NCBI GenBank assembly: GCA_949130485.1
Contig: OX422185.1
Location: 10,452,118-10,516,117 of the forward strand
Direction of reading: 5' to 3'
Length of the DNA stretch: 64,000 nt
Origin: Agelas oroides
Taxonomy: Eukaryota > Porifera > Demospongiae > Agelasida > Agelasidae
Of the stretch, positions 813 through 31,904 are shown piece after piece. The notes beneath the pieces were generated by a model that saw only the letters and a program-made list of their open reading frames with translations, ran no database searches and was not told the origin of the DNA. Position numbers and translations under genes: made by a program. Within the stretch, counting starts at the first letter, position 1, and each line of letters starts with the position of its first letter.

Positions 813-2498
813 AATTTAGACTGTCACCAGCTAGTGTCCCTCATTATTGCAGCCTGCCTGGAACCAAGGCTACACGGTGGCTAATAATCTGCATGGTATG
901 GAGACACACTCACCATGATATTTTGGCACAGCTATAATTCAACTGATCCTGTCTCTGTTTCTATACAAGGTGCAGTCCCCACCCTTCATGACTAGTTCAC
1001 CCACCACAAGCCTAACTGGTATCCATCTTTGATGCTCACAGCTTGTGGTCAGTAGATACTTCATGTCATTCTCCTCCATTTGACTAGCTACTAGTGTTAT
1101 ACACTTCCTATAGCATGGTCTGACATCCTGCTCACTGGAAATGTTGGGACCTCAGCAGATGTGATCTCACAAGCCAATCTCTCACCATAATGCACAGAGG
1201 AAAGTTACAGTGGAGGAAGAATACAGAGGTAGGTTTAAAGGCAATGACAAAGCCTTCTATGTGATTTAATCTTGATTTTTGCTATGAGACATGTGTCTAT
1301 GTTGATTGGATGTTCACATCAAAGCATGGCTTAAGTTTGTGTTCCCAGTACACATTTGGATGCTAGTAGGACTCATGATTCTTGTTAGCCATTTCTCACA
1401 GAGTTCATTTTCTCTGAACCTGATCATGCTAGGTCTTGCTACGTCATCCTTCACCTCTAGCATCAAACCAAGAGCACATTCCCTCATTTTCTTGGCAAAT
1501 ATGGACCCCCAAGTTATATGACCATTCCAGCCTTCAAGCATTGTTGTAGCTAGTGATATAGTGTTTTGTAAGATGCACTTGTATGTTTCCTGTATATATT
1601 TCTGTGTGTGTTGGAATAATTCAGTCTGTCTATATGGAACCCTAACTCTGGATGCGGGGCAGGATCCAAGTTACCACAGTTGTATAAGTTGTCACTACTT
1701 CATTGATATTCATATTCCTATACTAACAATGGCATGAACTCCATGAGACATCCAATATTCATAACTACATTCCTATAAGTCATGTGATACAAGCCCACTT
1801 ATGTGTTAGTTAACCATCAACAGTGTCGCTAAAAGCCCTGCATGATCCTCAATATACCATAGAACATTAATAATGTAATACTTATTACAAATCCAGTTAT
1901 ATACATGTCCTCATTATCATGGTACCTTCACAAAGAAGACTATACCCACAGCTGACCAGTGTTGAGAAACACAAGCTGAGATCAGAAGAGAAAAGTGGAA
2001 ACTAGAGAAAAGAATGCTCACAAACTGAAAGAAGTGCTTTTTAATGTTCCGTTGTAGAATTTATCTAAGTAACTAGCTAGTTGTAAAACAGTAATTTAAA
2101 GTGGATGCTTTGTTGCCAAACTTTGCTGTGAATTGCGTAGCTGTGCACGCAGATTAGAAATAAATCAAATCTCAAAATGATATCGAAGAAGTACTAGTAG
2201 TCATCAAAACTAGTACTGTGACTGTCTCACAGAAAAAACTACTGGCTGAAATGCATCCTCTGCAATGGGTGATCACACGTTACACACAGTGATTGTTAGC
2301 TAGAATCTGCCATATCAGTTTGCATCCTCGTGGTAGGCATCACTCACTTTCAGGCGTGGGGTTGGGTAAGCGTAAACGTATAACTGCATTCACGAGACTC
2401 TCCACGTTAATTAACCAGTGTCACTGCAGCTTGCCAGCTTGTCTACGTATCCCGCCCGTCGGGTAGCACAGCTGGTGGTGACAACGAAAACTGATGTT
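813..2498. other. Spacer between divergent genes; presumed 5' region of the adhesion GPCR
   Basis: No confident exon apart from the weak - strand trace around 905-1135. The last 100-200 bases should contain the promoter and 5' UTR of the GPCR gene, but no clear TATA box or initiator could be called. Short ORFs here are not supported by splice sites or composition. Confidence 0.35.
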
Positions 2499-5400
2499 AT
2501 GGAGTTGGATTGGAGATTGGGGTTACTGATGGTTGTAGGCTTGCTGTTCGCACCTACATCTGCGCAAACGATCGGTGGCATCGCACCTGGTGAGTTGGTA
2601 ACTAGCTAAAAATAAGCTGGCTCTCTAATGAAGGGCGGATCTCGTTCAATAGCGACCGCAGAAAGGCGGTCTGAAAAAGCTACCTGGCTCAAGCGCGGTA
2701 GATTTCTCACTGTGCTGCGTTTCACGGCACATATAAAACTGATATGGCTAGCTAGATTATGCATTTATATCCTTGAGGGGTGTGGCTCAGTGCAAACAGG
2801 CAAACGTCTACTCTGTGCTTTTGGACACAAGTCACCAATAGGCTGCATGATGTATGTAGCTGATGCTGTATCAGTAGAACCTGTATTACCAAAAAAAAAG
2901 CAGTCAGACTACGCATAATCTGTTGGGTTACGTAGACAAGTTCTTGGACCTGTGAGGAATGGAGCTTTCATTTTTCGCCCCAATCTCAACACAATTTTAT
3001 GCAATCAACAAGCAAACAAGCTAAGAAGATAGTTGACTTTAAGAACATCTTCTACCCCTAGTCATTTTTTAGTGTGGGGAAAAAGATGCCATGGCGGGCT
3101 AGCATTTTTGTTGTCGGTAAATTGCCAACAGGGATGGATAAAATCATGTTTATGTGCACTCACTCAAGTGTCTTAACCATTACTCATCATAATCTCTCCC
3201 AAGGATGCTTCTCCCTCAGCAAAAACCTATCACAGTCATAGTTGTTGCAGTCGGAATAGTACAGAAAGTCTGAGGGCTGGTTAAAGGGGTGTTCTAAGTG
3301 TAGACAGCGATCTACTATCTCCCGCTGCTATAATATATTCATATGTTGGGCTGCCTGTCACTATTATATTACTTTGAACTTTCACCCACTTAACATTTTT
3401 ATAGATTCATGAATATATCATCAGAAAGGAAGCTGTTCCATATCATGAACTGTCAGACTTTTCCTGCATTTTCAGCAGTGTACAACTGTTCATATACCCT
3501 CATTTCTGACAAACTCCAATGAAACTCACTACCACTCTTGTACAATGTAAAGTTCATCGCTTGTTGCCTTTGGAATCGTCTAGAAACTCATACAGGGATG
3601 CGCATATGGCTGTATGAACTTTCCACCAACTTTGCACTTTATTTGATGAACATCACCCATCATTAAGGTGTTCCATGTTAATCTTTACCTACATTATGAT
3701 TGTGTGTTACAAGAGAGTTTCACAAATTATACACTATTAGCTTGCTGAATGAATAAATGTAGTGCTAGAATAATGAATATCATTAGCCTGGCTCTTGGTG
3801 CTGAGTGTGATTGATGCTTTTAAGTTCACCGATTGCCTTGAACAATACAATGCAGACTGTCACCATCAAAGTGGTATCATTTCTGACTTCTAGTTTGTCT
3901 GAATGTTTCTTACATGATGCACAGCTTTGCATTGTAGCCTTTCAGCAGGTAAACTGAAATTGGCCAGAATTTTAGTGTAACAAAGTAGTATGCAGCTTGA
4001 CGCATGCGCATACAGTAGACACTAGGTGGTTCTTTCTTTTTCCTCTCCGTGTTGATAACCAGGCTAGAATAACACTTGAGCTTATTTGAGTATAGTGGCG
4101 ATTAATTGTCAACACCACAAGATATTAATGTAAAGTCTTGTAGAAAAGGAGGGAGGGAGGCCTATTAAACAATTTGGTACGTTTTGACATATGATTAATC
4201 ATTATTATGTTTCAGTTGTGTCTGGCTCTGGGTTTGAACTCTCACCGCTGCCTGCTTCAAGTCAATCACAGACTGCTACAACTACATCACAGACTGCTAC
4301 AACTACATCACAGACTGCTACAACTACATCACAGACTGCTACAACTACATCACTGGATGTACTATTTATGCCATTTTCATCACAGCCTGCTGTGGTCAGT
4401 TCCAGACCCCTGCAGCCTACAAGAGTTGAACCAAGCTCATCACAGCCTGCTGTGGTCAGTTCCAGATCCGTGCAGCCTACAAGAGTTGAACCAAGCTCAT
4501 CACAGCCTGCTGTGGTCAGTTCCAGATCCGTGCAGCCTACAAGAGTTGAACCAAGCTCATCACAGCCTGCTGTGGTCAGTTCCAGACCCCTGCAGCCTAC
4601 AAGAGTTGAACCAAGCTCATCACAGCCTGCTGTGGTCAGTTCCAGATCCGTGCAGCCTACAAGAGTTGAACCAAGCTCATCACAGCCTGCTGTGGTCAGT
4701 TCCAGATCCGTGCAGCCTACAAGAGTTGAACCAAGCTCATCACAGCCTGCTGTGGTCAGTTCCAGATCCGTGCAGCCTACAAGAGTTGAACCAAGCTCAT
4801 CACAGCCTGCTGTAGTCAGTTCCAGATCCGTGCAGCCTACAAGAGTTGAACCAAGCTCATCACAGCCTGCTGTGGTCAGTTCCAGATCCGTGCAGCCTAC
4901 AAGAGTTGAACCAAGCTCATCACAGCCTGCTGTGGTCAGTTCCAGACCCCTGCAGCCTACAAGAGTTGAACCAAGCTCATCACAGCCTGCTGTGGTCAGT
5001 TCCAGATCCGTGCAGCCTACAAGAGTTGAATCAAGCTCATCACAGCCTGCTGTGGTCAGTTCCAGATCCGTGCAGCCTACAAGAGTTGAACCAAGCTCAT
5101 CACAGCCTGCTGTGGTCAGTTCCAGATCCGTGCAGCCTACAAGAGTTGAACCAAGCTCATCACAGCCTGCTGTGGTCAGTTCCAGATCCGTGCAGCCTAC
5201 AAGAGTTGAACCAAGCTCATCACAGCCTGCTGTGGTCAGTTCCAGATCCGTGCAGCCTACAAGAGTTGAACCAAGCTCATCACAGCCTGCTGTGGTCAGT
5301 TCCAGATCCGTGCAGCCTACAAGAGTTGAACCAAGCTCATCACAGCCTGCTGTGGTCAGTTCCAGATCCGTGCAGCCTACAAGAGTTGAACCAAGCTCAT

Positions 5401-8400
5401 CACAGCCTGCTGTGGTCAGTTCCAGATCCGTGCAGCCTACAAGAGTTGAACCAAGCTCATCACAGCCTGCTGTGGTCAGTTCCAGATCCGTGCAGCCTAC
5501 AAGAGTTGAACCAAGCTCATCACTGCCTGATGCAGTTCGTTCGATTACGACACTATTTACTTCAAGTTCACCTGCTGTGGTAGCATCTGGTTTACCACCA
5601 GTCGCCTCGATTTCACCAACACTTGTTGCTTCAATAGCACCTACAGCAGCACCAAGTCCATCTCCTTCACCAGGTACACTTATTAACTTTGGTAACTAGT
5701 ATTGAACCATAACATGTTGATAGTGACCTAGGAGTATAGTACTCAGTTCACTTGGCTGAATTTTTTTTACCAGCAAAATTGTTTCGCCAACAGAAGCCAA
5801 AGGCAAGAGTAAGACATCTATAGAAACTTACACGTTGCCATGAATAACAGGACATACGTACTTCATCCTACTTTACATTTGCAAAGTTAGGGATTTGCTA
5901 CCATTTTAACACCACTTTCCCAGGATTGTTATCACGTTTGTAGTGCAGCCTGGTAATGTATACTGGTAATGCTCAGATTATTATCGCTTCCTTTGGCTTG
6001 ACAACTTCATTACAATGGTTATATGACTACAAGGTTTAAGTTAATCACAAGATGTAACAAATTAACACACATTTGAAGTTACTGCAGATCAGCAAACATC
6101 ACAGCATATAGTTATGCAACAGGTTTCCTTATATAAATACTGATGTTATGTTCATGTTAGTGGTTGTACTATACCGTTCTTCCTAGTAGCTCCTGTGATC
6201 ATTGGTTTTGAGCGGGCTCGTTACAGTGTGAGCGAGGATGCTGGGTCCGTACAGGCTTGCATAACATTCAGTGGACCACCTGGTGTTTCTGTGCCAGTTA
6301 CAGTTACTGCTGAAGATGGTACTGCTCAAGGTACTGAATATGTATGTATGTATGTATGTATGTGTGTATGTATGTATGTATATATTTATGTATGTATGAT
6401 GAAAGTAAGTATGTATGTATGTGCAATGATTATGCACACATTGAGTTGCCTCCTCAACATAGTGAGGCTTAAACCCTCACCATACTTTAAGGTTACGGGA
6501 TATAGTTTATTCATAACGTTCAACTGCGCATGCACACGGACGACTCCCTATGGAGTTTGAACTGATGCAATGGTGCTGTCGAGTGTCTTTTTTGAACCAA
6601 ATATAGCATTCATTATACGGATCCGAAGAGACCTAGTTACCAAAAGTTTGATCGCGTATACATAACCGCTTGTACAAGGTAACCTATTGGTTCTCACTGT
6701 GAAGAATGAGTTGAAGGTCTCTCTTTTCATGTTCCATGTTTTGCAGCTGTAGTCTAGTGCTGTGTAATTGCTTCGCGGTTAGTAAGTCTGAACCGTTGAC
6801 TCCGCCCCATTAAATATCATGTAACCTTAAGTGGATGGACCTTATACTTTATAAGGTGATTTCCAGAGTGCTGACATTACCCTATCTAGAGGTAAATAGA
6901 ATCTTCTGTATTGAGACAGCTATGACAATTTACTCTGTTGCTCTGTGTCACTTTCAAGCTGGCCAAGATTATACATTTCCAATGGCACTGAGACTGCCTT
7001 CACTGAGCTCACGAACCTGCATACAGGATGTTGGGATCTTGAATGATGCTGAAGTGGAGGGCTCTGAGACCTTTACACTCAGCCTTAGCAGCTCCAACAG
7101 CAATGTAGTGTACAGGAACAGAAATACTACTATCACTATTGTGGACGATGATGGTATGCTTTATATACAGTTTTTCTGAATTCGTTATTTAAGTAGGAAT
7201 GGTAGGAAACCTGAGAAATCATTCAGTAAATGAATGATACAGTTGCATACTTGGACCGCAATGTAACATGCCATTGTGTATAACAAACAGGCATGCCTTC
7301 CTTCTCCTCCCATAGCTGTAGGTCTTGGTTGTACAACAGTAAATCATGTAAGTGGTTCTAATGTATAATATTTTCCCCTTAGCCCAGCCTCCCCAGCTCC
7401 AAATCACATCTAATATTGGTGGGGTTGTTGTGGCTGGTGATAGCTACTCAATCAGTTGTGAAGTGACCTTCAATGATGACTTATCACTACCAATACAAAT
7501 CAGATGGATGGATCCCTCAGGTGATTAATGCATACCAGTACATTCAACAGTTGGCTTTCAACTGACTTCATTTGGGTAGCAAGAACATGCTTGTTCCTTA
7601 ACATAAACCCATGCAATGGATATATATGCCATGATTACTGCAATCACTGTAGTGGTTACAGTGTTGAAGGAAATTTAGTGGAACTTGAATGCGTATATAA
7701 ATATAACAAGAGGGTGAACACAGCCGTCTGACTGGGAACTTTATTAATGTTTTTTTTTTTCCTTTTCTCTCATTCATATACACAGGAAATAGTATAGAAA
7801 GTAGCACAAACCTCATCATCCTTGGTACTACAATGCCAGTTCGTAATGGGGCAGTACGAGACCTGAATTTCACTGCAATTCGTTCGTCACAGTCTGGGAG
7901 ATACAGGTGTGAAGCTGATGTCTACACCACAAGATCTGGAAACATCACCCTGTCTGGACAGTTCTCATTTAACGTGAAACGTGAGCTCGGTGAAGTACTT
8001 TGTAGTTTGTCTGTCCAAGATTTTTGGCACATGGGATATACATGCACAACAACAGTTTCAATTAGGACATTTTGCTATTGTGTACAAATACTTAGTTACA
8101 TCTGAGAGAGTATCCTGTAAAGGGTTTTGATTTGAAATCTTTGCTTAATTATATTGTCACTTTGATGGAAGGCTGCTTGTTTTTATTTTTCTTGCAGTTC
8201 CGGCTCCTCTCATTGTACTGACCCACAATGCTGGTGATGACCTGATCATTGCTGGAACTCCACTCACTATCCGCTGCGCAGCAATTGTTAATACTTCATC
8301 AGTAGACACACCCATATCTGCCATGGTATCTTGGCAGCCTTTAAGTGTTTACGAGGATGATGGGATTAGAGTACTTCCTACCACTGCTGTGACATCAGCA

Positions 8401-11400
8401 ATATATCAAACTGGATTAATATTTGACCCAATTCTTCCAGTTTACAGCAGCAATTACTCTTGTCTGGGCTCTTTCTGGCCAACCAACACTAATGCAACAT
8501 CATTCATAGTTGGAGGAGATGTTTCATCAAGGACTATACAGATTTCTGTTGACAGTAAGTGAATGTAATATCAACATTTGTCTCCATGTGAATGACCTGG
8601 AAGTCTAACATTACCTTTTGTGCCAACCTTGCTCCTGTACACTTGTTTCGTATGACTGTGTAATTACTGTCATCATTTTGTATGGTATCTATAAAGTATT
8701 GTATATCTCCTCTTCACTCTAGTACCACAATTTACTGTCACCATTGGCCCTTCCACTGTGACCATCCCGAATGTTGCCCCATACAACATGTATAATATAA
8801 CATGCAATGCAACTTCGCCAAATGCTGTCATGTTATCAGCACAGGTCATGTGGTATGATAGTTCTACTGGAGCCATGTTCTTTAACAATGCATCAGTAAG
8901 CATCACAACTGAACCTCTGGCTGAATCCCAGGGTTTCACCAGTACGCTGAGTGTAACTGAAACCCGAAGTGGTATGTTTTTTCCAAGGTGTGAAATTAGG
9001 GTGTTTGCTGAAGTCTATGATCTCACTACAGCCTTCTCGACACCAGCTGCAGTTATAGTGACAGGTATATTGAATGAAGTTAGCTACATAATGAATCGAA
9101 TGCATGGACTACCATGGCTACATTCTTAGTAGACAAGGACTTAATCAGTCTCGTTTGTTGTTAGAAAATGTGTAGTGAGAGTTCATCCTGATATTTTGTG
9201 CATTACTCAACTTCTGAAACAAGAGCAATCTTGAGTTCACTGGTTATGTGTATAGAGAGGATCCACTGTAATGTATATGTGTATATGCATTAGAGTATGC
9301 TGAGTAATTGTTCCAAAGTGCTGTAAATCAACAGTATCGACGCATACAGAGCATGAGATTGAAAAGCACACAAACACAACCCTCAATAATCTGAACCTCA
9401 CCAAAAGTTGTGATTTTGTGAATAATTATGCATCTTATATTTTGTTATTCAACAGCAAGATCTCTTTGATAGCAATACACTTCCCTTTGAACTTACATAA
9501 CATTGCTAATCAGTATTAATAATTTAATCTTGTGTCCTAAGATTATATGCCATTTTTTCTCTTTACCAGGTCCATCACCTCCCAGTGGTCTAGCTGAAAA
9601 TGTCACTATTGTTGGCGTATCTCATGAGCTTGCAATCATCCAGTGGGTGGTGCAGTATATTGCATACACACCAGAGACATATCGCATTCAGTATCGAAGG
9701 GTGGGAGAGGAAGACATCATCCAAATGAGTACACTCATAATGGGAAGCGCTAACTTTTCAGCAGTGAATGAACAGTTCACATTTACTCTCGATGGATTAG
9801 ATGCAAATGCAACTTACTATGCGACAGTTGTTTCCAGTAATACCATTGGAACAGACAGGACTGCCGAAGTGATGTTCCAAACACTAGCAACAGGTCGGTT
9901 TTCTGAGACTATCAATATTGTACATGATGCTACATGACGCATAGAGGAAAATATTAAATACACTAGTACTTTAACATTTACAAAATTATTTTGTCATTTT
10001 AATTAACATTTTTTACTGTTTCGTTGATGAAGAGTTCAGCAATGAATGTTGGTCATATAGTCTTACCACTGAGTAGATCTTATTATCCTAATACCCCACC
10101 TTGCTGTTTGCAGAGGTGAATTCTTCACTAAATCAACATGCAGAGTAAAATCCTATCCTGCCAGAGAAGTTTTAGAAAATGCTGCACTCCTTTCAGCTAA
10201 CTTGTGTACAGTGTATTACGTAGATACAAGTATGCAGTAATGCAGTTACTCTTATGCTCTTTTCACTCCCTCAGACATATACAACATCTCCGTCGATCTT
10301 TCTACCATTGAAGTTCCACTTGGGGCTCGACTGTCTTTTGTACTATCATTCTCCACTCCACCAATTCGCAATCCAGAGTATATGTTTCATCCTCTCTCCC
10401 ACACTCCCTTCCAACAACCAACTTTTAGCTCTGAAACACTTGAATCCAGAACTGATGTAGAAGTGAGCTACACTCGTGCGAGTCCCTCCCTCACTGGCAC
10501 CTATGTTGTGTGTCGGTCTGAGTCATTTATTCCAGATGGACCTACTCTGTCTGTGTCCAGCGTGCCTGCTCAGTGTGGTAGAAAGATATCGCTCATTGTC
10601 ACAAGTAAGTGTGTAACTGCTGGTGTTTGGAATTGTACGTAGTCTAGCTAATATGTTTGTAACTCTAGAGCTAGTGTACCATTTGTATCACAACCAAGCT
10701 ATACTGATGAACAATGATTAATTTTATTTCTTTATAATCATGCAGTTCCTACTCTCAACATCTCCATGAACCTTCTTGTGCGTCAATACAATGGACCATT
10801 TCTTCTCATGAGGGAAAGTCCCCCAAGGGTCTCCTGCATCCCATCTGACCCGAGAGCTCCTGTCCGGTGGACCACACACATGGGGATGGTCCCAGCAGAT
10901 TATCAGATCACATTCAGCCCCAGAGATCTCTCTCATACTGCAACATTTGCAAGTGTCTACAACCCAACCCCACCCAATCGCACTGAAACGCTGTTTTGTG
11001 ATCTGATTAATGTGGACACACCTGACCAACCTGTCAATCCTCAGAATGTTACTGTCAGATTCATTCAGAGTAAGAAAGAATTACCTCCAGACATGACTGT
11101 TCTTCTAGATCTATTCATAGGCACTACCAAACTTTTATTATTGCTATGACTTGGGACTTCTCATACTAAGCATGTTGTCCATATCTACACCACAAATAGC
11201 GAGGTAACAATAAGAACTCAAACTTTGGCTAAGTTAGAGCAATAGATATGAATGCATGGAAGGATTCTTGTCAGCATTGATCAGTTCCATTATGCTCAAA
11301 GCATCTTCCTCAGCTGGAAATAAAATGTTTCAAGGTGAAAAGAGAGGAAAACAAAACCTACTGAAACACTTGTGCAGTACAGGGGGGGTGCATATAGAAA

Positions 11401-23400: not shown

Positions 23401-26400
23401 GGGAGCTGCTGTACAGAGCTACGTAGTCCGCTTTTTGGAGGGTCCGTTTTTACTGTAGTACTCATCACCAACAACTTTTCTGCCTATGGACACTCTGCAT
23501 GGTCTCTAATCCTTGGATGAACACTCCTGTACAAAAAGGCCTTACAATATTGTAGGAACCCCAGGGCAATATGTGAGTTAGAGTTACGTCCGACAACTAT
23601 ATTTATAAATGAATGGCACAAGTAGTAACATATACTTTGATGTTTACTTTGTGCTTCTATCTCTTCAGGGTGGCTGTGCATTTGTGGCAGCCTTGTTGCA
23701 GTACCTATTTCTGGCAGCCTTCTGTTGGATGATGTGTGAGGGTATCATGCTGTACCTGATGTTGGTGGTTGTCTTCAGCACACTGTCAAAGAAATGGTGG
23801 TTCTTTTTATTGCTTGGTTGGGGTGAGTGCATAGACTAGAGCTGCACAGTGTGTGTGTGTTGCTGTCTTGGGAGTTCACTCAAAGAATTGCAAAATTAGT
23901 AATTATTAAGCATCATCAGCACTATACGCTTCCAAAAATAAAGAAGAGGAAACAGACATACTAATTGCAGCTATACTAATGTACAAACATAGCTAGTGCA
24001 TACTAATGCACAAACCAATGCACAAAAGTACGACATACCTTTGTTCAAAGGTACTGATGTACAAAAGTAGTACATACTTATCTACAAAAGTCATGCAGAT
24101 TTCCAGTTAAGGTTGAGCAACGCAGCAGCAGAAATTTGGTCCACAATTGGAAGTTGTGCAACTCCGACGCATTGTCTTTAGTCCTAGCCGTGCAGTATTG
24201 AAATTGCCATTTTTCAAGGTAGCTGGGCGCCCATAGTACACGTGGAAGGCACTGACACAACTCTAGTGATGACTGGCTGTTTGTGAGTCTTGATTATGCA
24301 GCTGTGTGCTAGAACATATATGGTCACAGTTACCAGTGCTTGCAGTGCAGCTCCTTCCGACAGCATACACTCTTTCATATTGAGTTCCTGTTGTGGATGC
24401 CTGGCACACTGCCTGTGCCAAAATCTCCTCAGTAGAGTATGAAGAGCTTTGACGATGATCTCTTTCATGGTCTATCAGCTCATTGGAAACAATTGTCCTG
24501 TAAAAGTCAAACACTGATTATCGAATTCTATGTACTAGCTACATGTGCAGTAACTCACTTGTCAAGTTGGTTAGAGCTTGGAGCTGCTTCAGTAGCAGCA
24601 AATAGAATGCAGGCAGCAAACAGTAAAGCAAGAGCTCCCTTCATGCTGACAGTGCGTGGACTGATCCAAGCTACTATAGTAGCAATACTGCATGGGATCT
24701 TGTTTAAATAGAGCCACTGTGCATTGAGTGGAATGGTAACCAAGCAACTAAAATAACAGCAGGGTCACAGGTTCAAATGTTGAATAGGCCACTGCCCATA
24801 AAAGGCTATTCTATTTTTTAAGATATACTTTTGGTACAGCTTCTAAACACAGAATCATAACATCTGCCCCCACCTTTCTTTTGTAGTCACCCCCACACCA
24901 ATTATAGTGCATTGAGTTGATGATAGCTAACAGGTTGTGGGGTTCCAATGCAAATGGCTTCAATAGGGTGCTGGTGATGCAGTTTCCTGTCTGTGAAAGG
25001 CATTGACCTTTAACTCCTGCTTGGTGGCACTGCTTACATACCAACTACACAACATCATCTTTATCCACTTAGTGTGTTCAAAATCACTCTGCAAAAAAAT
25101 TAAATGTGATGCACTAACTTCTGCTACTCATTCCCATGACAGAAATTATAATGTGCAGCAGCTACATGTGTTTATTATAGTTATAGTTATATGGAATCAT
25201 ATAATACTGCCATCCTATTATGCCAAAAACTCCTCTCTGTAAACACAGGTTGGTTGTTTTAACCAAAGAGTGGTTACCTCGGTTGCATAGCTACAAGCTG
25301 GAGAGACAGTTGTTATGAGAGGTTTTACTTTGGTATGGAAGACTAATTGCATAAGCCAACCTGAAAGGCAGCTTCCCAGTTCATTTTACAACCACAGTAT
25401 CCTCAGAACATCTGTAAGGAGTCATTACAAATGCACTTCAAAGTTGCAAAAGGAACTTCTATGCTCTTAATGCAAGCAGGTGATTCCCTCACAGATGTTC
25501 AGAGGGTTGTCAATGTGTTGTGGTTGTAAGATGAACTGGGCAGCTGCCTCTCAGGTTGCCTTATGCTATTAGTCTCTAATTGTGAGCGGAAGCGAGGCAA
25601 ATAATCGTGCTGTGTGGGATTTGAATCTCAGTTTTGTCTGTAACACTCAGGAATGTAATCTACAGTGGCATGCGTAGGAATGCAACTACAGCGGCGTGCA
25701 TGCATGATCACAAGGTAGAAATGGAGTGGGATGCAGAGAGCAGTGGTCCGCCTAGCGGATGCGGATGTGGAAAGGAGGAGATTAACCAGGGTACAAATGC
25801 AGCCACACCGTCAAGCAGAGGATGATTCCCAGAGGCAGCAATGATGAAAGACTGACCGACATAGGCACAACCTCAGCCGTGCCTAAATCAATCAGCCTCC
25901 CGTCGTTGCTGCCTCCGATGGTGGCGCTGTACTCGTATCCTGGTTGATCAATGAGTGCAGTGGCCGCTTTGAGCAGAGGATGATTCCTTGAGCCAGCAAC
26001 GACGAGAGGCTGACCAACGTAGACACACGTAACTGGTACATATACACAGTAGCCCAATACCTCGCTTCCTGCGAGGCTGTCCTGCATGCATTCACATATG
26101 CCCTAGTATAGAAATAAATATCTCATAACCACCTCTCTCTAGCTAGTCTGTAACCATGGTAACCACTCTGTAGTTGATTTGTTTACTTACCAAGCACACA
26201 TGATTTTTATCCACTTAGTATGTTCAAAACCCTTTGCAGAAACTAAAATGTGATGCACAAACTGCTGCTACTCATTCCCATGACAGAAATCATAACATAC
26301 AGCAGCTACATGTGTTTATTGACACTGATATAGTTATATGGAATCATAATACTGCCATGCATCCTATTATGCCAAAAAATCCTTCCAAAGAATGGAACAT

Positions 26401-29400
26401 GATGTACAAACTGGATTTTGTCAGTACATTTTTAGAAGTCATAATCATAACATTTCTGCCTTTAATTCTTTTGAGGATAGCTACCAGTTGTAGTGCATTG
26501 AGTAGATGGCAACAAACATAACAATACTGTTATGGGGTTGTAAATGGCTTCAATGGGCTCTGGTTGAATGTAGTTTCCTGCATGTAATTACCCCCTCAGA
26601 GCAACCTTTGGCTGTGATTATCACCACCTGTGATCTGCTATACTTTGCCCCCTCATTGTTATATCATTTTGAGGGGGTGGATTATGCTCTGTGCCCACAT
26701 ATTGGCGCATCCCTAGTTGGGGGTTTCAACCTAAATGGTTTCAATAGATCATGCAGCCTCCTGGCTGTAAAAGGCTATATTGATTTCAATCTTTCAGAGC
26801 AATCTTTGGATCATCATAGCATGTGATTTTGCTGTACTTTGCCCTCTGAATGAGAAAGATTACCAGCAATTTTCATAGTTTTGAAGGTTACTTTCATTGT
26901 GAGTCTTTATACTGTGAAACTTACAATCTTATCTGTTTCCATCTTTCTTTGCAGTCACTCCAATACCAATTGTAGTGATTTCATTGGCTTCACGGTACCA
27001 GTACTATGGAATCCTGGATGAACAAGGCAACCTCAGCTTGTATGCAGAAGTAGCATAGTCATGCTTGCATAAGGAGTAATGCAACACCTTTGCAGCTGAC
27101 GAAAGTGTCTCATCTAGCGATACACATCTATTATAAAAACAGATTTTCCTTGATTTGGCACTTCTTTATGGCATCTTCCTTCCCTTCTGCAGATGTTGGC
27201 TCTCAGTTGAAGAGGGAACAATCTATGCTTTTGTAGTGCCAGTGCTGGTGATAATATTGGTGAGTTAAACAACAAAGGGTCTCAGATTGCTTGATGTGAG
27301 TCTTATTTGTTGCGACAATCCCTTCACACCTTAGCCTCCTACCCAGGCCACAAGCCAAAAAAAAGAGAACATGGCCTGGTATCCACTGTTTGCACACGTG
27401 TGATGATCACGGTGCACTTCAGTACAATTGTAAAGTTCACAACTCTATGTGCCGGTGTCATAGCTGATCCAATCTCCCCGAAAACCCGATCTGGGCTGGA
27501 TCAGATATCCTAGCAATTTTGATCCTACCCTAGCAGATTTTGATCCAGGTTATGAACGATGCTATGTATAGGGCTCCCGCTTTTGACTTCTCAGTAAATT
27601 ACCATCTCTTAACAGTGCCCTTACCTTTGCTGGCACTCCATTTGCTATATATTTGCAACATTTGTGAATCATAGTCAAGCTGACCTCCCGATTCTTGTGC
27701 AGCACTCTGTGGTCACTAGGTATTAAATTCACAATTGCTTCTCAGACATATTCTGCCAATGGTTCACACTTACTTTTGGATAATAGAGCATCTGGTACTT
27801 CAGGCCTCTGGTTCTCACAGGTACGTGAGCTTCTGCCAATATAGGATATGTACACATCATGGTGCACGTTTTGTCTTGCAGCAGCAGATTCAATTAGCTG
27901 GTGGAAGGCTGTAGATTTTAGAACAGGCTGGGGAAGGAGGCTAAGTTTCCCTTGATTGACTGTAAGAGAGTTCACTTGTTTCATCTTGGTAATGTACCCC
28001 CTCGTATACATGATGTACAGCCTTCAACTTTTGTGAATTGAGAGTTAACGTTTTCCTTTTCAACTTGCAAAAGTTTGTTGGAAATGCCAACTTTCTCACT
28101 TTGTCATCTTCGACAATATGGAAATGAAACAGATGTATACATAGCGATTATGCAAACCATTTTGAAACATACGCGGTCTATACCAGATCCCCAGGTTTTC
28201 TCTGGGGATAGTCACAAATGCGTGAACAATGGATACCAGGCCACCTTTTTTCCCCCTTTTTTGGTTTGCTAACTGCATCCCAAGTGAAAACAAGACAATG
28301 ACTTGAATGCAGGTGGCTTGAATGCAGGTGGACAAATCAGCTTGTCCTGCAATGAATGAGTCATTAATGTAATCCACTAGGTACACATAGTGTGGAAGCC
28401 TAGCTGCAAAAGTGGAACAGGGAATTGGGAATCAGAGTTAGGTGTACAATCCAGCTTCTAGCAATAAGCATAGCTATTGCATGTAGAGTGAAGCTAACTT
28501 GTCTTGCTACTACATGTACGCTGTATGCCACTCCACTATGTATAGTCAAAGTATTTTGCCGGGTGCAATTTGTAGTACTAAGGGCCATGTAGAGGCAAGA
28601 TAATAAACAAAGCCAGCAAACTTCTATTGACCGGCTGGCCATGCTACTAATTTGTGTATCTATATCTGAGCGGTGTAGCAGCTAAAACACAGCACAAGCC
28701 TTTTGAGAGACGTTGGTCAGTGTTGTAAAGATGCGCTGTTGCCATCAAAAGTGCTGTGTATGCATGGGATGTGCTGTAGTACAGCAAGCCAGTAGTGCGC
28801 ACTTCAGTGAAGTGTCAAACTGACTTGTAGCTCAGTGTGGCTGTGCTGTATTAGTAGTCTGCTACCAGAAAGTTGTAGCTAATAGATCTAGCTTGTTAAC
28901 AATGTACCTACCTTAGCCTTTATACAAGGCTCCAGAGCTGCAAGTTGGGATGAAGTTTGTGTGGTCACTGAAGTTTCAACATTTTTGACCATAACTCAGG
29001 TTAGCAGTGGTTTAAAAAACGTAATCTCATCTTTAGCAAATACCTTCATGTTAAGATAGCTAGTTTGGCCACTGTAAAATCCTGTGTCACCACAGATCCA
29101 ATTCATTGATGGCAAATGTATGGCCCTGTGCAATTGCCGCGGGTTAGCTCTCGACCTTAGTGCTTGCACAGTAGATACTTCAGTGATAACTGTTTCAAGC
29201 TGTGGTGTCAAACTTCAGTATGTCCTCTCAGGCTGGGAAAGAACTTTGGGCATGCACATGGACTTTTGTGGCTTTTCATTCATTCATTACTATATTTGTT
29301 TTTCTTTCCACTTGAGGTGTAATGTTTGGTTTGCATGGTCTGGGTACGAGGCGTTTCCTTACCTATCCCAAGACTATTAAATTTTATTGACTCATTCATT

Positions 29401-31904
29401 GGCAACACACCTAGTGGTATAGAATGTGGTCTGGTACTAGAAATCTAGCTGCGTAAGTAGCTCATTCATTAACTCCTAGATCAATGTGGTGTTCCTGTGT
29501 CTTGCACTGAGAAGTTTGTGGAGGAGCAAGAAGAGGCAGACAAAGGTCAAGAAAATGGAGAAAGATGACAAAATACGAGAGCTAGCCAAGTGAGATACAA
29601 TGATCTGTCTACACAACCTATATATCCTATGTAACTGTATGACTAATCTGACTAGTTTCGTGTATAAGGACTGAGGTAATTAATGTCACAAATTCTTAAG
29701 TTGCCACCACACTACAACTCACAATGATATATCTTAGATTGTCGATTATCTTGCCTTGGCTGTAAATCAATGCTGTAAAGAATACATGTTCAATGGTATG
29801 GTAACATTGCCAACCCTGCATGTACTACCTCCTGTTGCAACTAGAGCATTCAGTACTGCCTGTACAGCTAGTGTATAATGCAAGAGATGGTGGTTTAACA
29901 GCAGTTGTGGCTCAGTGATTGAACACTGGAAGCTCAAGCCAGGGACCCTAGGTTAAATTTCTGGAAAAAATTTCACATACCATCAAACACGTTTATCAAT
30001 AGCATCCTTAATGATATTGTATGTTCAGCCATTATCCTAGTTGTCACTTCTCGCTAATAGGACCACTTTCAGAGCCACTGTTATACTTCTCCCTCTGCTG
30101 GGGCTAACTTGGGTGTTTGGAATTCCTACAGTCATTGTGGCTGCCAATCCAAATGCCACTGTGTTTGCCTGGCTCTTCACCATTTTGAACTCCCTGCAAG
30201 TGAGTGCATGATCGAGACAGTATGGATTTTATATATATGAAATCCAGAAAATAGTGCACTATGTATACGCAATGGTGAGTGCAGTATTGTACATGTTATC
30301 ATTGTGGTGCTATCAATGAATAACAGAATGCAGCATTGTATACTGGATGTGGTCTGCCATAGCCAACTATATAAATGTAGGCAGAACATTATTAGGGTGG
30401 GTCTGAGGGAGAGATCATGCAATCATGTTTTATGTACAGTGTAGTAAACTGGGAGAGGATTCCATAGCTGATTGTATTTTGTTTTTTTATAAAGTGCTTA
30501 ACATCCCCACAGGGTGTTGGAATCCTGTTTTTCCATGTGATACGAAGTGAGAAGGTGTGGAGTACGATTGGTCCACGACTCACTGCCATTCGTGAGAGAA
30601 CACTTCGGTCCACCCTTAGATCCCGAAAGTATGAAGTGGTGAGTTACTTACATGTTTAACAGCAAAATGGCTGTTTGAATACAACTCACGCAGTTAGAGA
30701 TTGGTCCATAATGTAGCCTAAGTGTATGATTTTAGGTGGCAAATGTGGTCACAAGTAGGTAATCTTTGTCAAACATAAACTCCTCTGCTAGATCAGTTGT
30801 ATTCAAAATCTATGCATGTGCTGGACTACATTGTATTCTCTACTTGATCCTTGTTTCTATTTTCATTGCCGTCTAGGACTATACAAATGTTCTAACACTG
30901 ACAATTTATCCAATTTATAGTATACTCTTTAATAACGTGCAAAAATTATTTCTTTGCTAAACTTCCTCCTAATGAATGTAGTTACTGACATCATTAGTAG
31001 TTTGTGTTGACCTGGTGTTGACCTGGTGTGTATTTTCAATAGTCCTCTTCAGCTGCAACTTCCTCTACTCTACTGAAGGGTGGCACCTACAAGGCCAAGA
31101 AGGAGGGAAAAGGTAATCATACATGCCTGGTAGCCTCAACCCAAGGCCCTGATTATTGTTGTTTCAGTCAAACAAAACTCAAGCACTTTAAAAAGACATT
31201 TTCCTTTTTAATTCCACAATTATTATCTTGCATTATGAAATGATACAAGAATGTTAAATTCATAATGGAGAAAGATATAGGAACAGCATGCCAAATATTA
31301 TAGAAATAAGAAAGGGATATCATAAAATAAATGGAGGGAAATAAACAAAACAAAGTCCCATATCAACATTCGAATAAACTGTAGTGCAGAAATAGGGCTT
31401 GTATATTTATAATAAGTAACAGTTTCGTGTTAACCAAAACCAAGCTGATTGCTTGAACCATTATCAAGTTACAGTTGTTGAACAAAGAAAGTCTGAAGAA
31501 AAATAGAGCTATTCAAAAGCATTTTTCAAAGCTCTAAATTTTTCTCCAAGGCTGCAAAACCAAGACTCTGATCATCAATTTTTCACCTTCTATTTTTAGA
31601 ATACGAAATGAGTACACATTCAAAGCACACCACCAGCACTGAAGGGAAAGAGCTTATATCAGTGATAAGTTCAGAAGGAGAACCTGAAACCACATCCTCT
31701 GCAATGCCACCCAAAGAAGAGACTGGTTTTTCAAACCCATTGGTAGAAAAAGTTCCACTGTCTGTGACTGATGATGAGGTCATTGCTAATCCCAGTGCTA
31801 ACAAGGGGCCAGAGGAAGTTGCTCAGACTGAAGTTACAATGGAAGGAATGGCACCAGAAAAGGTGGAAAGTCCTCCGGTCTTAGAAAAAGAAGTGGACCC
31901 ATAG
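2499..31904 (+). CDS. Giant adhesion G-protein-coupled receptor, 43 exons, 2,927 residues
   Basis: Exons: 2499-2589, 4216-5673, 6187-6330, 6959-7153, 7383-7520, 7786-7980, 8198-8554, 8723-9064, 9570-9893, 10275-10604, 10746-11069, 11899-12510, 12892-12948, 13119-13227, 13431-13648, 14168-14506, 14632-14895, 15107-15175, 15481-15746, 15826-16057, 16191-16288, 16629-16763, 17262-17337, 17454-17564, 17658-17752, 18272-18475, 18915-18983, 19309-19420, 19582-19743, 19976-20048, 20232-20352, 20486-20535, 20676-20814, 21057-21163, 21292-21403, 23669-23822, 26955-27039, 27193-27259, 29480-29589, 30061-30199, 30513-30638, 31043-31112, 31600-31904. All junctions are GT-AG and all phases agree, so the frame never breaks. 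Start: the Met at 2499 opens a typical signal peptide (core GLLMVVGLLFA, cleavage near SAQ); an in-frame Met at 2418 would hide it. Domains are given in the block entries. As in other adhesion GPCRs, GAIN/GPS autoproteolysis should leave a long ectodomain bound to the seven-helix part at the cell surface. Ligand and G-protein partner cannot be told. Exon 13 (57 bases) is the least certain exon. Confidence 0.9.
2590..4215 (+). other. Intron 1 of the adhesion GPCR
   Basis: Donor GTGAGT at 2590 and acceptor tttcag at 4215 in phase 1. No additional exon or nested gene is convincing. The open frame at 2628-2918 lacks splice signals and has a non-coding composition. A purine run (gagggagggagg) lies about 60 bases before the acceptor. 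Confidence 0.6.
4216..5673 (+). CDS. GPCR exon 2: Ser/Thr/Pro-rich repeat stalk
   Basis: A single 1,458-base exon encodes residues about 31-516, almost wholly low-complexity Ser, Thr, Pro, Gln and Val. It has four SQTATTT units, nineteen 20-residue units, and a closing stretch rich in SPS and TLVAS. The composition is mucin-like: dense in likely O-glycosylation sites and free of cysteine, so it should form an extended spacer that holds the N-terminus away from the Calx-beta and Ig modules. Both exon ends are phase 1, so the exon could be skipped without a frameshift. Confidence 0.85.
4266..4349 (+). repeat. 21-base tandem repeat, 4 copies, coding
   Basis: Four consecutive units encode SQTATTT each (Thr-rich, potential O-glycosylation). 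The DNA units look identical, which suggests recent expansion. Confidence 0.92.
4381..5520 (+). repeat. 60-base coding minisatellite, 19 tandem copies
   Basis: Nineteen perfectly phased 60-base units (1,140 bases) encode a 20-residue unit running SSQPAVVSSR, then SVQPTRVEPS. Units are nearly identical at DNA level: units 1, 4 and 10 share one variant (RPL for RSV), unit 8 has a silent change (tgtagtc), and unit 11 replaces Pro with Ser. Because 60 is a multiple of three and the unit lacks stops in other frames, long shadow ORFs appear in a second + frame. Such homogeneity implies ongoing unequal exchange and probably length polymorphism. Confidence 0.95.
5674..6186 (+). other. Intron 2 of the adhesion GPCR
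   Basis: Nothing recognisable inside. It ends in a tandem TAGTAG, so the acceptor may be used at 6186 or 6189; both keep the frame and differ by one residue. Confidence 0.6.
6187..7153 (+). CDS. GPCR exons 3-4: Calx-beta domain
   Basis: Exon 3 gives the first half (FERARYSVSEDAGSV, then VTVTAEDGTA) and exon 4 the second (GQDYTF, then ILNDAEVEGSETFTLSL and ITIVDDDG). Order and motifs match Calx-beta: S-V-x-E-x-x-G at the start, T-A-x-x-G before G-x-D-Y, E-G-x-E-x-F in the middle and an acidic terminal loop. In this family the acidic residues of the final loop and the D-Y turn bind calcium, as in Na/Ca exchangers and VLGR1-type adhesion GPCRs. Residues are about 517-629. The intron between the halves carries a TATG microsatellite. 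Confidence 0.85.
6331..6958 (+). other. Intron 3 with a (TATG)n microsatellite
   Basis: About 6338-6425 is an imperfect TATG/TGTA repeat directly behind the donor at 6331. The remainder shows no exon. The short ORFs here run through the repeat and lack splice support. Confidence 0.7.
7383..9064 (+). CDS. GPCR exons 5-8: three Ig-like domains
   Basis: Ig1 is split over exons 5 and 6: YSISCEV, then IRWMD, then SGRYRCEAD. Ig2 is exon 7: TIRCAA, VSWQP, SNYSCLG. Ig3 is exon 8: YNITCNAT, VMWYD, FFPRCEIRV. Each shows the strand-B Cys, strand-C Trp and strand-F Cys of the fold, so each probably has its intradomain disulfide. Exons 5-8 start and end in phase 1, the classic arrangement of shuffled Ig modules. 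Several NxS/T sites suggest N-glycosylation. Residues about 630-973. Confidence 0.8.
9065..9569 (+). other. Intron 8 of the adhesion GPCR
   Basis: No exon, repeat or RNA gene was recognised in this stretch. Confidence 0.5.
9570..9893 (+). CDS. GPCR exon 9: fibronectin type III domain
   Basis: One phase 1-1 exon encodes about 108 residues beginning PSPPSGLAENVTIVG, with the strand-B Trp (IIQWVVQY), the strand-C YRIQYRRVG and the closing L-x-A-x-x-x-Y core (LDGLDANATYYATVVSSN). These are the hallmarks of FN3. It is the only FN3 in the receptor and separates the canonical Ig trio from the second Ig block. It probably acts as a structural spacer or adhesion module; no RGD is present. Confidence 0.85.
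9894..10274 (+). other. Intron 9 of the adhesion GPCR
   Basis: Nothing recognisable; ends in a ccctcag acceptor. Confidence 0.5.
10275..15175 (+). CDS. GPCR exons 10-18: Ig-like superrepeat block
   Basis: Seven Ig-like modules follow. Type A (exon 10; exon 12 second half with exon 13; exons 17-18) opens with a V-P-x-G or V-L-E-G turn and lacks the first Cys. Type B (exon 11; exons 14-15) has SCIPSD or RCIPND, then A-P-V and Trp. Type C (exon 12 first half; exon 16) begins with AVINTY or TVINTF, then Cys, Trp and a final YYTCRS or TFSCVS. The order A-B-C-A-B-C-A indicates a duplicated three-module unit. Exon 12 fuses C and A with no intron between them. Exon 18 adds two extra Cys (FSCEDESGLNCIV). 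Residues about 1082-1855. Sequence divergence makes the A modules the least certain as Ig folds. Confidence 0.7.
11405..11530 (+). repeat. tRNA-derived SINE-like repeat, copy 1
   Basis: An A-box-like stretch (cgcagctgagtggtagagc) is followed about 30 bases later by a B-box-like gagtttgattttt. Spacing and sequence resemble a tRNA-type pol III promoter. Related copies lie at 11640-11800, 13690-13812 (opposite strand) and 29895-29990. Confidence 0.5.
11640..11800 (+). repeat. tRNA-derived SINE-like repeat, copy 2
   Basis: Shares ggttgtagttta and the B-box ggtttgattctcgg with copy 1 and lies 230 bases after it in the same intron and orientation. Confidence 0.5.
12511..12891 (+). other. Intron 12 with a degenerate CCAT/CTGT simple repeat
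   Basis: About 12655-12855 is an imperfect tetranucleotide repeat (catc, tgtc, catt) giving a spurious open frame. The next exon (12892-12948) is short, so splicing here is the least certain part of the gene model. Confidence 0.6.
13649..14167 (+). other. Intron 15 with an antisense SINE-like copy
   Basis: 13690-13812 read on the - strand contains ggttgtagatcagtggtcag (A-box-like) and a later gggattaattctc. A tracked GATA-rich stretch (about 13900-13945) follows. No exon. Confidence 0.45.
14896..15106 (+). other. Intron 17 of the adhesion GPCR
   Basis: Ordinary short intron; together with intron 18 (15176-15480) it shows no recognisable element. Confidence 0.5.
15481..17752 (+). CDS. GPCR exons 19-25: HRM, SEA-like, EGF/TSP3-like, HRM
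   Basis: Exon 19 has a hormone-receptor-type module (CPREVNGGILWPRT, APCRDGG, RSCLGNGEW, RCT). Exons 19-20 continue into a segment with LRTFVNFFTNDLQSLAGF and a GSRGTLQVI strand that resembles an SEA fold. Exons 21-23 are Cys-rich: SPCDCSGGSGCQ, then CQDPFVGDGVRC, then the acidic DSDGDGYPD typical of thrombospondin type-3 calcium repeats. Exons 24-25 form a second HRM (FNGCPYG, WNIVWANTP, RCPGG, LCMGDGNWTEPN). Two HRM-like modules around a calcium-repeat insert is unusual; one HRM before GAIN is the common arrangement. Residues about 1856-2193. The SEA call is the weakest. Confidence 0.72.
16289..17261 (+). other. Introns 21 and 22 around exon 22
   Basis: Intron 21 (16289-16628) starts with a short GT repeat at the donor. 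Intron 22 (16764-17261) has a run of similar short phrases with ggagggatg at about 17090-17140, a small local repeat. No other features seen. Confidence 0.5.
17753..18271 (+). other. Intron 25 with a ~200-base CCCT microsatellite
   Basis: About 17979-18184 is an almost pure CCCT tract with a few TTCC interruptions, preceded by degenerate CTCC sequence. It yields spurious Pro/Ser-rich and Gly/Arg/Glu-rich ORFs on the two strands; these are not genes. A homopurine-homopyrimidine mirror tract of this length can form triplex (H-DNA). Confidence 0.9.
18272..20814 (+). CDS. GPCR exons 26-33: GAIN domain and GPS
   Basis: Exons 26-31 form the helical and beta parts of GAIN (IAQVLAQSAAITNQI, VVDVLNNILEENN, RRQTSLLVSSNTLEQNPVS). 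Exons 32-33 form the GPS: GYRCSYWNFSE, then NGSWESEGI, then LVQCLSTHLTSFAVLID. The Cys/Trp pattern is complete, and HL before TSF is the canonical autocleavage site, predicted between residues about 2489 and 2490. The buried tethered-agonist strand would begin TSFAVLID. All catalytic elements known for GPS self-cleavage (His at -2, Thr nucleophile) are present, so cleavage is expected. Confidence 0.88.
18476..18914 (+). other. Intron 26 of the adhesion GPCR
   Basis: No element recognised, but parts of it (about 18570-18700) recur at about 63190-63370, so the intron was carried in the segmental duplication seen at the right end of the window. Confidence 0.5.
18989..19077. repeat. Palindromic MITE-like hairpin in intron 27
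   Basis: An almost perfect inverted repeat with arms of about 40 bases, beginning ttcccaggccactcccag and ending ctgggagtggcctgggaa, then gaggctag. Its outer ends match the palindromes at 57561-57664 and 35752-35842. It begins five bases after the splice donor of exon 27. Confidence 0.85.
21057..30638 (+). CDS. GPCR exons 34-41: seven-transmembrane domain, secretin/adhesion class
   Basis: TM1 exon 34 (IGCAISVVCLIIAIVFFLL), TM2 exon 35 (HLFVHLNLSISLLLGYLIF), TM3 and most of TM4 exon 36 (FCWMMCEGIMLYLMLVVVF; WWFFLLLGWG), TM4 end exon 37 (VTPIPIVVISLASRY), ECL2 and TM5 exons 38-39 (LCWLSVEEGTIYAFVVP), TM6-TM7 exons 40-41 (LLGLTWVFGIP; AWLFTILNSLQGVGILFF). These are family B2 hallmarks: the Cys pair between TM3 and ECL2, CWLS, G-L-T-W-x-F-G, and N-S-x-Q-G in TM7. 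Basic intracellular loop 3 (RSKKRQTKVKK) suggests G-protein coupling. Two introns of 2.2-3.1 kb interrupt this part, unlike the compact ectodomain. Confidence 0.93.
21404..23668 (+). other. Intron 35, repeat-bearing
   Basis: 2.3 kb without an exon. About 21850-22080 contains gggctgggctttaactagaat, also found in the LINE remnant near 54065-54085 on the other strand, so it may be a retroelement fragment. A pogo/Tc1-style MITE occupies 22971-23457 (separate entry). Low-level gggtaaccctaaccc-like phrases at about 22470-22520 are not a telomere array. Confidence 0.5.
22971..23457. mobile_element. MITE with TACAGT ends, probable TA target site
   Basis: Left end tacagtggaaaggacc, right end ggtccgtttttactgta; reading inward these form imperfect inverted repeats of about 17 bases bounded by TA, as in pogo/Tc1-type elements. 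At 487 bases it has no transposase ORF, so it is a non-autonomous element. GC-richer than the surrounding intron. Confidence 0.5.
24107..24644 (-). CDS. Small secreted cysteine-rich protein, nested antisense in a GPCR intron, in-frame TAG
   Basis: Exon 1 (24644-24559) encodes a textbook signal peptide (MKGALALLFAACILFAATEA) and splits in phase 2 at AA/GTGAGT. Exon 2 begins at 24497 after a tttacag acceptor and stays open to a TAG at 24265-24263, giving about 111 residues. The same frame continues past the TAG to TAA at 24107 and looks just as coding: it has CVSAFHVYYGRPA, LGLKT and a C-x5-C-G-P-N-F-C-C-C cluster, bringing the total to 158 codons. So either the allele is truncated, the TAG is read through, or the base is a sequence error. 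Cys-rich secreted proteins ending GPN-F/Y-CCC are known to me only vaguely from marine invertebrates; function unknown. No sign of transposon origin. Confidence 0.6.
24703..24710 (-). promoter_or_regulatory. TATA-like box of the nested antisense gene
   Basis: TATTTAAA on the - strand, about 60 bases upstream of the start codon at 24644, which leaves room for a short 5' UTR. It supports the nested gene as an independent transcription unit. Confidence 0.5.
24866..24915 (+). pseudogene. Decayed copy of GPCR exon 37 start
   Basis: acctttcttttgtag then tcacccccacaccaattatag matches the acceptor and first 30 bases of the true exon 37 (atctttctttgcag, tcactccaataccaattgtag). It keeps a usable AG but runs into TGA after about nine codons. 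A more worn third copy is at about 26455-26510. Confidence 0.6.
25250..25600. mobile_element. Foldback element in intron 36
   Basis: Two arms of about 85 bases in inverted orientation: gcataagccaacctgaaaggcagc at the left and its complement (gcctctcaggttgccttatgc) at the right, around a short spacer. A solo relative of the left arm with flanking sequence lies at about 39932-40165, where ttggttgttttaacca and cattacaaatgcacttcaaa recur. Confidence 0.7.
27260..29479 (+). other. Intron 38, possible reverse-transcriptase fragment
   Basis: 2.2 kb without a GPCR exon. On the - strand about 28400-28100 one frame includes YLVDYINDSFIAGQ, which resembles the active-site region of DIRS-like reverse transcriptases (normally Y-I-D-D-S), with Asp changed to Asn. 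No wider domain could be assembled, so this is a tentative relic. Nothing else recognised. Confidence 0.3.
29590..30060 (+). repeat. Intron 39 with a SINE-like copy
   Basis: 29895-29990 contains a good A-box-like tggctcagtgattgaacac and a worn B-box (aggttaaatttc), the fourth copy of the tRNA-like repeat family found in introns 11 and 15. Confidence 0.45.
30639..31599 (+). CDS. Introns 41-42 and exon 42 of the GPCR tail
   Basis: Exon 42 (31043-31112) encodes a small Ser/Lys-rich segment (SSSAATSSTLLKGG, then KAKKEGK) directly after the membrane domain. The flanking introns have no recognisable elements, apart from a direct duplication of gacctggtgt just before the exon. Confidence 0.7.
31600..31904 (+). 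CDS. GPCR exon 43: acidic Ser/Thr/Glu-rich cytoplasmic tail
   Basis: Last coding exon, about 101 residues, stop TAG at 31902. It is Glu/Ser/Thr/Pro-rich (PEST-like), as expected of a phosphorylated receptor tail; it ends in EKEVDP, not a canonical PDZ ligand. No AATAAA is present within the next 150 bases, so the polyadenylation signal is probably a variant. Confidence 0.85.

Follow-up and report, generated by a model that had tools for sequence, protein, structure and literature searches.

A sponge adhesion GPCR with two HRM domains in its core and a tandem neighbor that carries a different outer end

We analyzed a stretch of 64,000 nucleotides from the sponge Agelas oroides (hereafter, the window), which spans positions 10452118 to 10516117 of contig C3 in an assembly of 259 Mb and 141 contigs. 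On its forward (+) strand, between positions 2499 and 31904, lies a gene of 44 exons that join in frame to encode an adhesion GPCR of 2929 amino acids; all features of this gene described below are on the same strand. An automatic splice model with 85 exons was over-split and was discarded, and a stricter automatic model of 27 exons, from which exons were missing, was completed manually with reading frames and splice sites as guides. The hand-corrected model has AG/GT at every junction, begins with an ATG at 2499, and contains a single stop, the terminal one at 31902 to 31904. It thus bears out the start at 2499 and the end at 31904 that had been proposed in an earlier note made from the sequence, as well as that note's single frame free of internal stops, but the number of exons is 44 and not 43. 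The Pfam scan of the protein covered amino acids 517 to 2929; amino acids 1 to 516 consist of the signal peptide and a repeat.

Exon 1 (2499 to 2589), placed by its frame and donor site, encodes what by eye is a signal peptide (MELDWRLGLLMVVGLLFAPTSA), and the homologous exon of a neighboring gene, P1, is 73% identical over 26 amino acids. Exon 2 (4216 to 5673), an open frame with phase 1-1 ends, is rich in S, T, and P and carries a 60-bp (20-amino-acid) tandem repeat that Tandem Repeats Finder counted at 19.2 copies. Since this mucin-like repeat directly follows the signal peptide, it forms the distal N-terminal tip of the protein, and the word "stalk" used for it in the earlier note was the wrong one. 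Exons 3 and 4 (6190 to 7153) encode the Calx-beta domain that had been predicted (Pfam, 5.1e-15), which has no match in P1. Exons 5 to 8 (7383 to 9064) encode three Ig-like domains, the first recognized by Pfam (Ig_3, 6.8e-8) and the other two by pattern; exon 9 (9570 to 9893) encodes an FN3 module (Pfam fn3, 7.8e-5) whose 23.3 bits fall under the cut-off of 25; and exons 10 to 18 (10275 to 15175) encode seven more Ig-like domains, two of them recognized by Pfam (ig, 4.1e-5; V-set, 2.5e-7) and the rest by pattern. The predicted order of three Ig domains, FN3, and seven Ig-like domains was therefore recovered, with three of the ten Ig-like modules over a Pfam cut-off (Ig_3, ig, and V-set), seven recognized by pattern, and fn3 just under its cut-off. 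Four Ig-like modules scanned singly gave no Ig match in Pfam, and a PDB search with a 676-residue piece reaching into the Ig-like array returned no match; because three of ten reach a Pfam cut-off and the PDB search with the array piece was empty, the count of ten is a count by pattern. Exons 2 to 13 and 16 to 18 all have phase 1-1 ends, as do 3 of the 26 exons from exon 19 on, in a model whose exon choice was partly guided by phase. Such a run would be the usual sign of shuffled modules.

Between the Ig-like array and the GAIN domain lies a core of four units. The first part of exon 19 (15481 to 15665) encodes an HRM domain, HRM1, and all four genes of alignment A1 match HRM. The end of exon 19 together with exon 20 (15666 to 16057) encodes a module of a family with no Pfam or PDB match, alpha/beta by eye, that was aligned in the paralogs P2, P4, and P5 at 28 to 33% identity. 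Exons 21 to 23 (16191 to 17337) encode a Cys-rich EGF and thrombospondin type-3-like calcium unit, here EGF/TSP3, and exons 24 and 25 (17454 to 17752) encode a second HRM domain, HRM2. Pfam finds HRM in two stretches of the protein at 3.3e-17, and HRM1 (42.4 bits) and HRM2 (33.6 bits) each pass the cut-off of 26.2 when scanned alone, which upholds the proposal of two HRM domains flanking a calcium-type insert. Evidence for the insert itself is of two kinds: it falls under the Pfam cut-offs (EGF_3, 0.024; TSP_3, 0.84, in one of four genes), but a four-gene profile of the insert between the HRM domains matched the EGF/type-3 junction of thrombospondin-2 in the PDB (residues 130 to 181, 8.5e-5), whereas chance-like matches of the same list begin at 0.024 (SPOP, positions 44 to 104). 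The CTLDSDGDGYPD-type motif of the unit is found in four of the four genes aligned. The module after HRM1 had been called SEA-like. When two modules were scanned separately, Pfam gave no SEA match and listed only unrelated families under cut-off, and a three-gene profile of the post-HRM1 module had no PDB match at E values up to 10. The SEA label is therefore not confirmed, and the note's own yardstick, failure of such scans, counts against this part of its reading. In the alignment of the core, P5 was edited manually (a tblastn match supplied its first exon, and a short insertion judged to be a false exon was omitted), and the P2 row may contain misjoined pieces in the post-HRM1 module.

The signaling end of the receptor follows. 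Exons 26 to 33 (18272 to 20814) encode GAIN and GPS (Pfam, 1.3e-17 and 6.4e-10), exons 34 to 41 (21057 to 30638) encode the 7TM (Pfam 7tm_2, 2.1e-52), and exons 42 to 44 (30736 to 31904), placed by the gene model and lifted to P1, encode a cytoplasmic tail. Adhesion GPCRs characteristically have a cleavage site of the form HL/S or HL/T followed by a hydrophobic tethered agonist. A putative site of this kind, HL/T, lies at amino acids 2487 to 2489 (T codon at 20773) and leads into TSFAVLIDV. We compared this region across eight genes: the window gene, six paralogs (P1 to P6), and a member on contig C16. HLTS is kept in seven of the eight, P3 and P6 included, and the C16 member has HFTS; HLTSFAVL is likewise conserved in seven of eight. 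A GPS usually has four cysteines; here the second and fourth are missing in all eight genes, and the presence of the first in P6 depends on the splice model. GAIN and GPS of the window gene nonetheless both exceed their Pfam cut-offs. Among the matches listed in a phmmer search of the PDB, the solved structures nearest to the GAIN-7TM part were ADGRL3 (6.7e-58) and ADGRD1 (1.1e-49). With a 7tm_2-type 7TM, a GAIN domain whose GPS adjoins TM1, HL/T followed by the hydrophobic TSFAVLIDV, and a signal peptide (by eye) ahead of an ectodomain of about 2500 amino acids with adhesion modules (Pfam), the window gene is, as judged from its sequence, an adhesion GPCR.

Elsewhere in the window, positions 50094 to 53756 contain Copia-type retrotransposon frames (RVT_2, 2.4e-79, and integrase pieces), and positions 54215 to 56304 contain, on the reverse (-) strand, a LINE-like endonuclease fragment (Exo_endo_phos, 0.0011, under cut-off). 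Also on the reverse (-) strand, at 43104 to 45406, lies a gene with a 484-amino-acid frame that has several hydrophobic stretches, a proline-rich part, and no Pfam match. An Rfam scan of the window gave nothing over gathering score.

Downstream of the window gene, in C3:10516001-10566000, lies P1, another gene of this kind, and comparison of the two is the best evidence that the model is coding. The P1 model was lifted from the window gene in 47 pieces, some of them spurious in the part without Calx-beta. Over the shared body, exons are 97.3% identical (6890 bases) and the aligned bases of 35 introns are 94.4% identical, and dN/dS, calculated with the lifted model, is 0.30 over 2296 codons; the body is under purifying selection. 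By part, dN/dS is 0.31 for the first three Ig domains and FN3, 0.26 for the Ig-like array, 0.16 from HRM1 to HRM2, 0.45 for GAIN, 0.08 for the 7TM, and 0.79 for the tail, the last figure covering all exons beyond amino acid 2775. We also carried out a split-half test, in which each half of the gene was searched with a coding model trained on the opposite half and six other GPCR frames. With the threshold set at 2, the search found 35 modules, of which 31 overlapped exons of the gene model; of the 42 exons in range, 12 were recovered exactly (12/12 in the phase of the model), and adjacent pairs were compatible in 5/5 cases; at threshold 4, 20 modules were found, 17 overlapping exons and 6 exact, again all (6/6) in the phase of the model. 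Exact recovery was 10/26 in the 3' half and 2/16 in the 5' half, so the test is weak in the 5' half. A coding model built from the six single-exon GPCR frames alone was weak, finding five modules, of which three overlapped exons and one was exact. Another version of the test, which had given 33/33 phases and 26/26 adjacent pairs, was set aside as circular because it had been trained on the gene model itself.

P1 has the same body as the window gene and a different tip. From 12 bases upstream of exon 5 (window positions 7371 to 30860), the two genes are 91.6 to 96.7% identical in DNA over matches of at least 120 bases, and from 30860 to 32093 they are 84.6 to 87.9% identical. Pieces of window 31 to 5703 that match P1 are only 69.8 to 86.2% identical, the highest figure being that of an inverted piece, and by the same DNA comparison (matches of at least 120 bases) window 5704 to 7370, which includes the Calx-beta domain, has no match in P1. 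Synonymous divergence is 0.42 in exon 1 (29 codons only) and 0.06 in the body. In place of Calx-beta, P1 has five whole Sushi exons with phase 1 ends and one half exon; the two that were scanned match Pfam at 1.3e-18. The best Calx-beta hit in P1 has an E value of only 0.87, and a search for Sushi in the window at E values up to 1 found none. The 20-amino-acid tip unit occurs in one copy in P1 (by eye) versus 19.2 in the window gene. P1 11509 to 20226 has no match in the window except for one shared repeat, an insert in the intron between the TM2 and TM3 exons of the window gene (21570 to 22572) that is 90% identical to P1 15555 to 16527 beside the half Sushi exon. The earlier note had left this difference between the tips unforeseen, and the comparison of paralogs is a stronger point than the odd mix of domains on which that note was built.

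Introns that are 94.4% identical are what would be expected if the two genes were alleles of one locus placed in tandem by the assembly. We consider this very improbable, since the 5' pieces are only 69.8 to 86.2% identical, the stretch between these pieces and exon 5 cannot be aligned, and a spacer of about 39 kb from the stop of the window gene to the start codon of P1 contains only a few short pieces that match P1. Between the two genes, at 63902 to 64098 (the last approximately 100 bases lying past the end of the window), there is an isolated fragment resembling GAIN exon 29, with 88% DNA identity, which perhaps is what remains of a third copy.

We searched the genome for relatives of the outer modules of both genes. 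Outside P1, the closest matches to its last Sushi exon (17310 to 17489) are at C1:17.1-18.9 Mb and C2:20.4-20.7 Mb, with up to 81% protein identity among the best 150 of 678 matches. For the P1 exon at 14973 to 15149, DNA likeness to places on C1 and C2 is 80 to 88%, extends over roughly the exon only, and leaves the introns unlike (among the best 40 of 105 matches). Synonymous divergence of this exon is 0.25 to 0.49 to six places on C1 and C2 and 0.05 to 0.79 to the four remaining Sushi exons of P1, so that the first range falls inside the second. C1:15.7-19.8 Mb and C2:20.4-20.7 Mb together hold more than 100 P1-like Sushi modules (among the best 150 of 678 matches); these stretches look like a large receptor cluster, and none of the 7tm_2 matches listed (the best 150 of 382) falls within them. 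The Calx-beta domain of the window gene has no close relative among the best 150 of 394 matches (best E value, 1.1e-6; 42% identity). On C13, at 8.365 to 8.415 Mb, seven Calx-beta matches form a tandem array with a spacing of exactly 1032 bases, an arrangement reminiscent of sponge aggregation factors.

The TM3-4 exon of the receptor matches at least 19 places at E values up to 1e-6, on contigs C3, C16, C14, C12, and C22 (counted by eye among the best 150 of 181 matches). The block HRM1, post-HRM1 module, EGF/TSP3, HRM2, GAIN, and 7TM was found again on contig C3 in P1, P2, P4, and P5, with 31 to 34% identity to the window gene from HRM1 to HRM2 in the last three. The C16 member and the window gene form a group that excludes P2, P4, and P5, with a support of 0.945 for HRM2-GAIN-7TM and 0.970 for the 7TM alone; in the C16 member, neither HRM1 nor EGF/TSP3 was seen in the 5.5 kb that precede HRM2, and HRM1 failed to align in P3 and P6. 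The two-HRM core, as read from these sequences, is thus common to five of the eight genes and either absent or undetected in the other three, and because no HRM1 was detected in the C16 member, P3, and P6, it may not be universal in the family. The N-terminal side was traced as far as the signal peptide in the window gene and P1 and in part in P2, P4, and P5. On the 5' side of the core, both P4 and P5 show an EGF exon (EGF, 7.1e-7 in P4) and what by eye is a signal peptide, neither of them joined to the core by a full model, and a module scan of these upstream stretches at threshold 8 found no exon; P2 has Ig-like exons there.

These genes also bear on whether the composition of the window gene is real. 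The earlier note had argued from in-frame joining that it could not be an artefact of the gene model. Joining in frame is by itself no proof of a single transcript, because exon choice was partly guided by phase; the order from HRM1 to 7TM recurs, however, in four further genes of contig C3 and is therefore no accident of modeling. As for the boundary at exon 19, two transcription units could share the locus: a secreted Calx-beta/Ig protein that stops short of exon 19, followed by a shorter receptor that begins at HRM1, for example, at an ATG at 15402. The HRM1 frame is indeed open from 15375, the in-frame ATG at 15402 is followed by a hydrophobic stretch and might serve as an internal start, and the stretches of P4 and P5 examined ahead of the core contain no Ig array. 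Yet this stretch just upstream of HRM1 scores as noncoding (-9.9 over 105 bases versus +16.9 for the exon), exon 18 joins exon 19 phase 1 to phase 1, and in P2 HRM1 is preceded, at a distance of about 90 bases, by a phase 1 exon that reads like the last part of an Ig domain. No AATAAA or ATTAAA occurs at 14896 to 15106 or 15176 to 15480, which says nothing about an end before exon 19 because none occurs in the 496 bases past the stop at 31904 either. On these signals, the case for separate transcripts appears weakened, and we regard two units as improbable.

We favor, as fairly probable, a single gene in which a conserved core of HRM1, post-HRM1 module, EGF/TSP3, HRM2, GAIN, GPS, and 7TM is combined with replaceable phase 1 outer cassettes. 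The domains, the frame, the purifying selection, the core of five genes, and the differing outer modules of near-identical neighbors can all be read from the DNA, and they suggest that receptors of this kind may exchange the outer end while the signaling end stays fixed. The receptor would cleave itself at HL/T within GAIN, and the long N-terminal fragment that carries the Calx-beta/Ig tip would bind a ligand on a cell surface or in the matrix. Pull on this fragment, or its release, would expose TSFAVLIDV as a tethered agonist, and the 7TM would then signal through G proteins; exchange of the tip would change what is recognized and leave the same signaling end. The window gene is thus probably a recognition receptor, for which a role in contact or in the recognition of non-self would be most likely.

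The tip difference is one case, that of the window gene and P1, and it could also be a single accident in an ordinary lineage-specific adhesion GPCR assembled by old domain shuffling, an accident that contributes nothing to diversification. The comparison covers a single pair of near-identical copies, a dN/dS of 0.30 in the body is plain purifying selection, and new N-terminal combinations are called general for adhesion GPCRs (PMC12716839). A single accident accounts less well for the finding that the number of repeats, the module lying between tip and body, and the degree of divergence all shift just upstream of exon 5, or for the yet other N-terminal sides of other family members, and we regard it as possible but doubtful. 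A broader form of our favored reading would be a family with a constant core and a variable tip, in which at least 19 loci keep the signaling end, phase 1 cassettes are captured from other clusters (such as Sushi exons of the kind found on C1 and C2), repeat tips grow and shrink, and near-identical bodies spread between neighbors. We put this forward speculatively and think it rather unlikely as a whole; if true, such a family would amount to genome-encoded diversification of contact or non-self recognition through GPCR signaling. To our knowledge, how animals without antibodies discriminate self, non-self, and partners is open in many lineages, and few adhesion GPCRs outside vertebrates have a known ligand. 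Two neighbors with one body and two tips amount to a domain swap already made by nature. Should the two tips prove to have different ligands but the same output, what the outer modules do would become directly testable. The HRM-EGF/TSP3-HRM core of five genes also offers a defined module.

Latrophilins are the first known system to consider. Like ADGRL3, the window gene has the order HRM-GAIN-GPS-7TM, an HL/T site, and a TSFAVL-type tethered agonist; unlike latrophilins, it has a second HRM, an EGF/TSP3 unit, Calx-beta, ten Ig-like modules, and FN3. Latrophilins carry lectin and olfactomedin domains, and the Pfam scan of amino acids 517 to 2929 found neither, which sets the window gene apart from ADGRL. 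The ectodomain of ADGRV1 (VLGR1) contains Calx-beta, and a review legend names Calx-beta among the domains. Where ADGRV1 has many Calx-beta repeats, Pfam finds one stretch in the window gene, accompanied by the Ig array and the HRM domains, and ADGRV1 was absent from the PDB matches listed for the GAIN-7TM part (60 of 91). The SEA domain upstream of GAIN that marks ADGRF-type receptors does not appear to be present by the Pfam and PDB sequence searches given above. The insert between the HRM domains aligns to residues 130 to 181 of thrombospondin-2, as given above, but unlike in thrombospondins, it is a single unit within a receptor, and other thrombospondin parts were unseen in the scan of amino acids 517 to 2929.

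In the literature searched, mostly outside subscription journals and available in part (including PMC4302439, PMC12716839, PMC6208332, PMC13197933, PMC2396169, and PMC5450542), we found neither this architecture described, nor two HRM domains around EGF/TSP3, nor neighbors with swapped tips, in agreement with the earlier note's view that the combination is unlike any described subfamily. That note under-weighted how usual odd N termini are in adhesion GPCRs; according to the parts of the sources consulted, unusual combinations are the rule and shuffled N termini are known (PMC12716839, PMC4302439). In the sponge Amphimedon queenslandica, the N termini of adhesion GPCRs include Ig, fn3, EGF, HRM, and GPS, and at least eight have HRM (Krishnan et al. 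2014, PMC4302439); within the text and figure legend consulted, the legend to the domain figure does not name Calx-beta or Sushi, "calx" occurs 0 times in the main text, and no two-HRM order is described. In another sponge, Aplysina aerophoba, a different adhesion GPCR gene is reportedly up on exposure to microbial patterns (PMC6208332).

The domain order and the single reading frame of the window gene, through Pfam domains and a frame of 44 exons, stand as first proposed, apart from the SEA label. Protocadherins and Dscam likewise have a constant membrane end and variable outer modules; in the sponge genes described here, the variation observed is between tandem genes.
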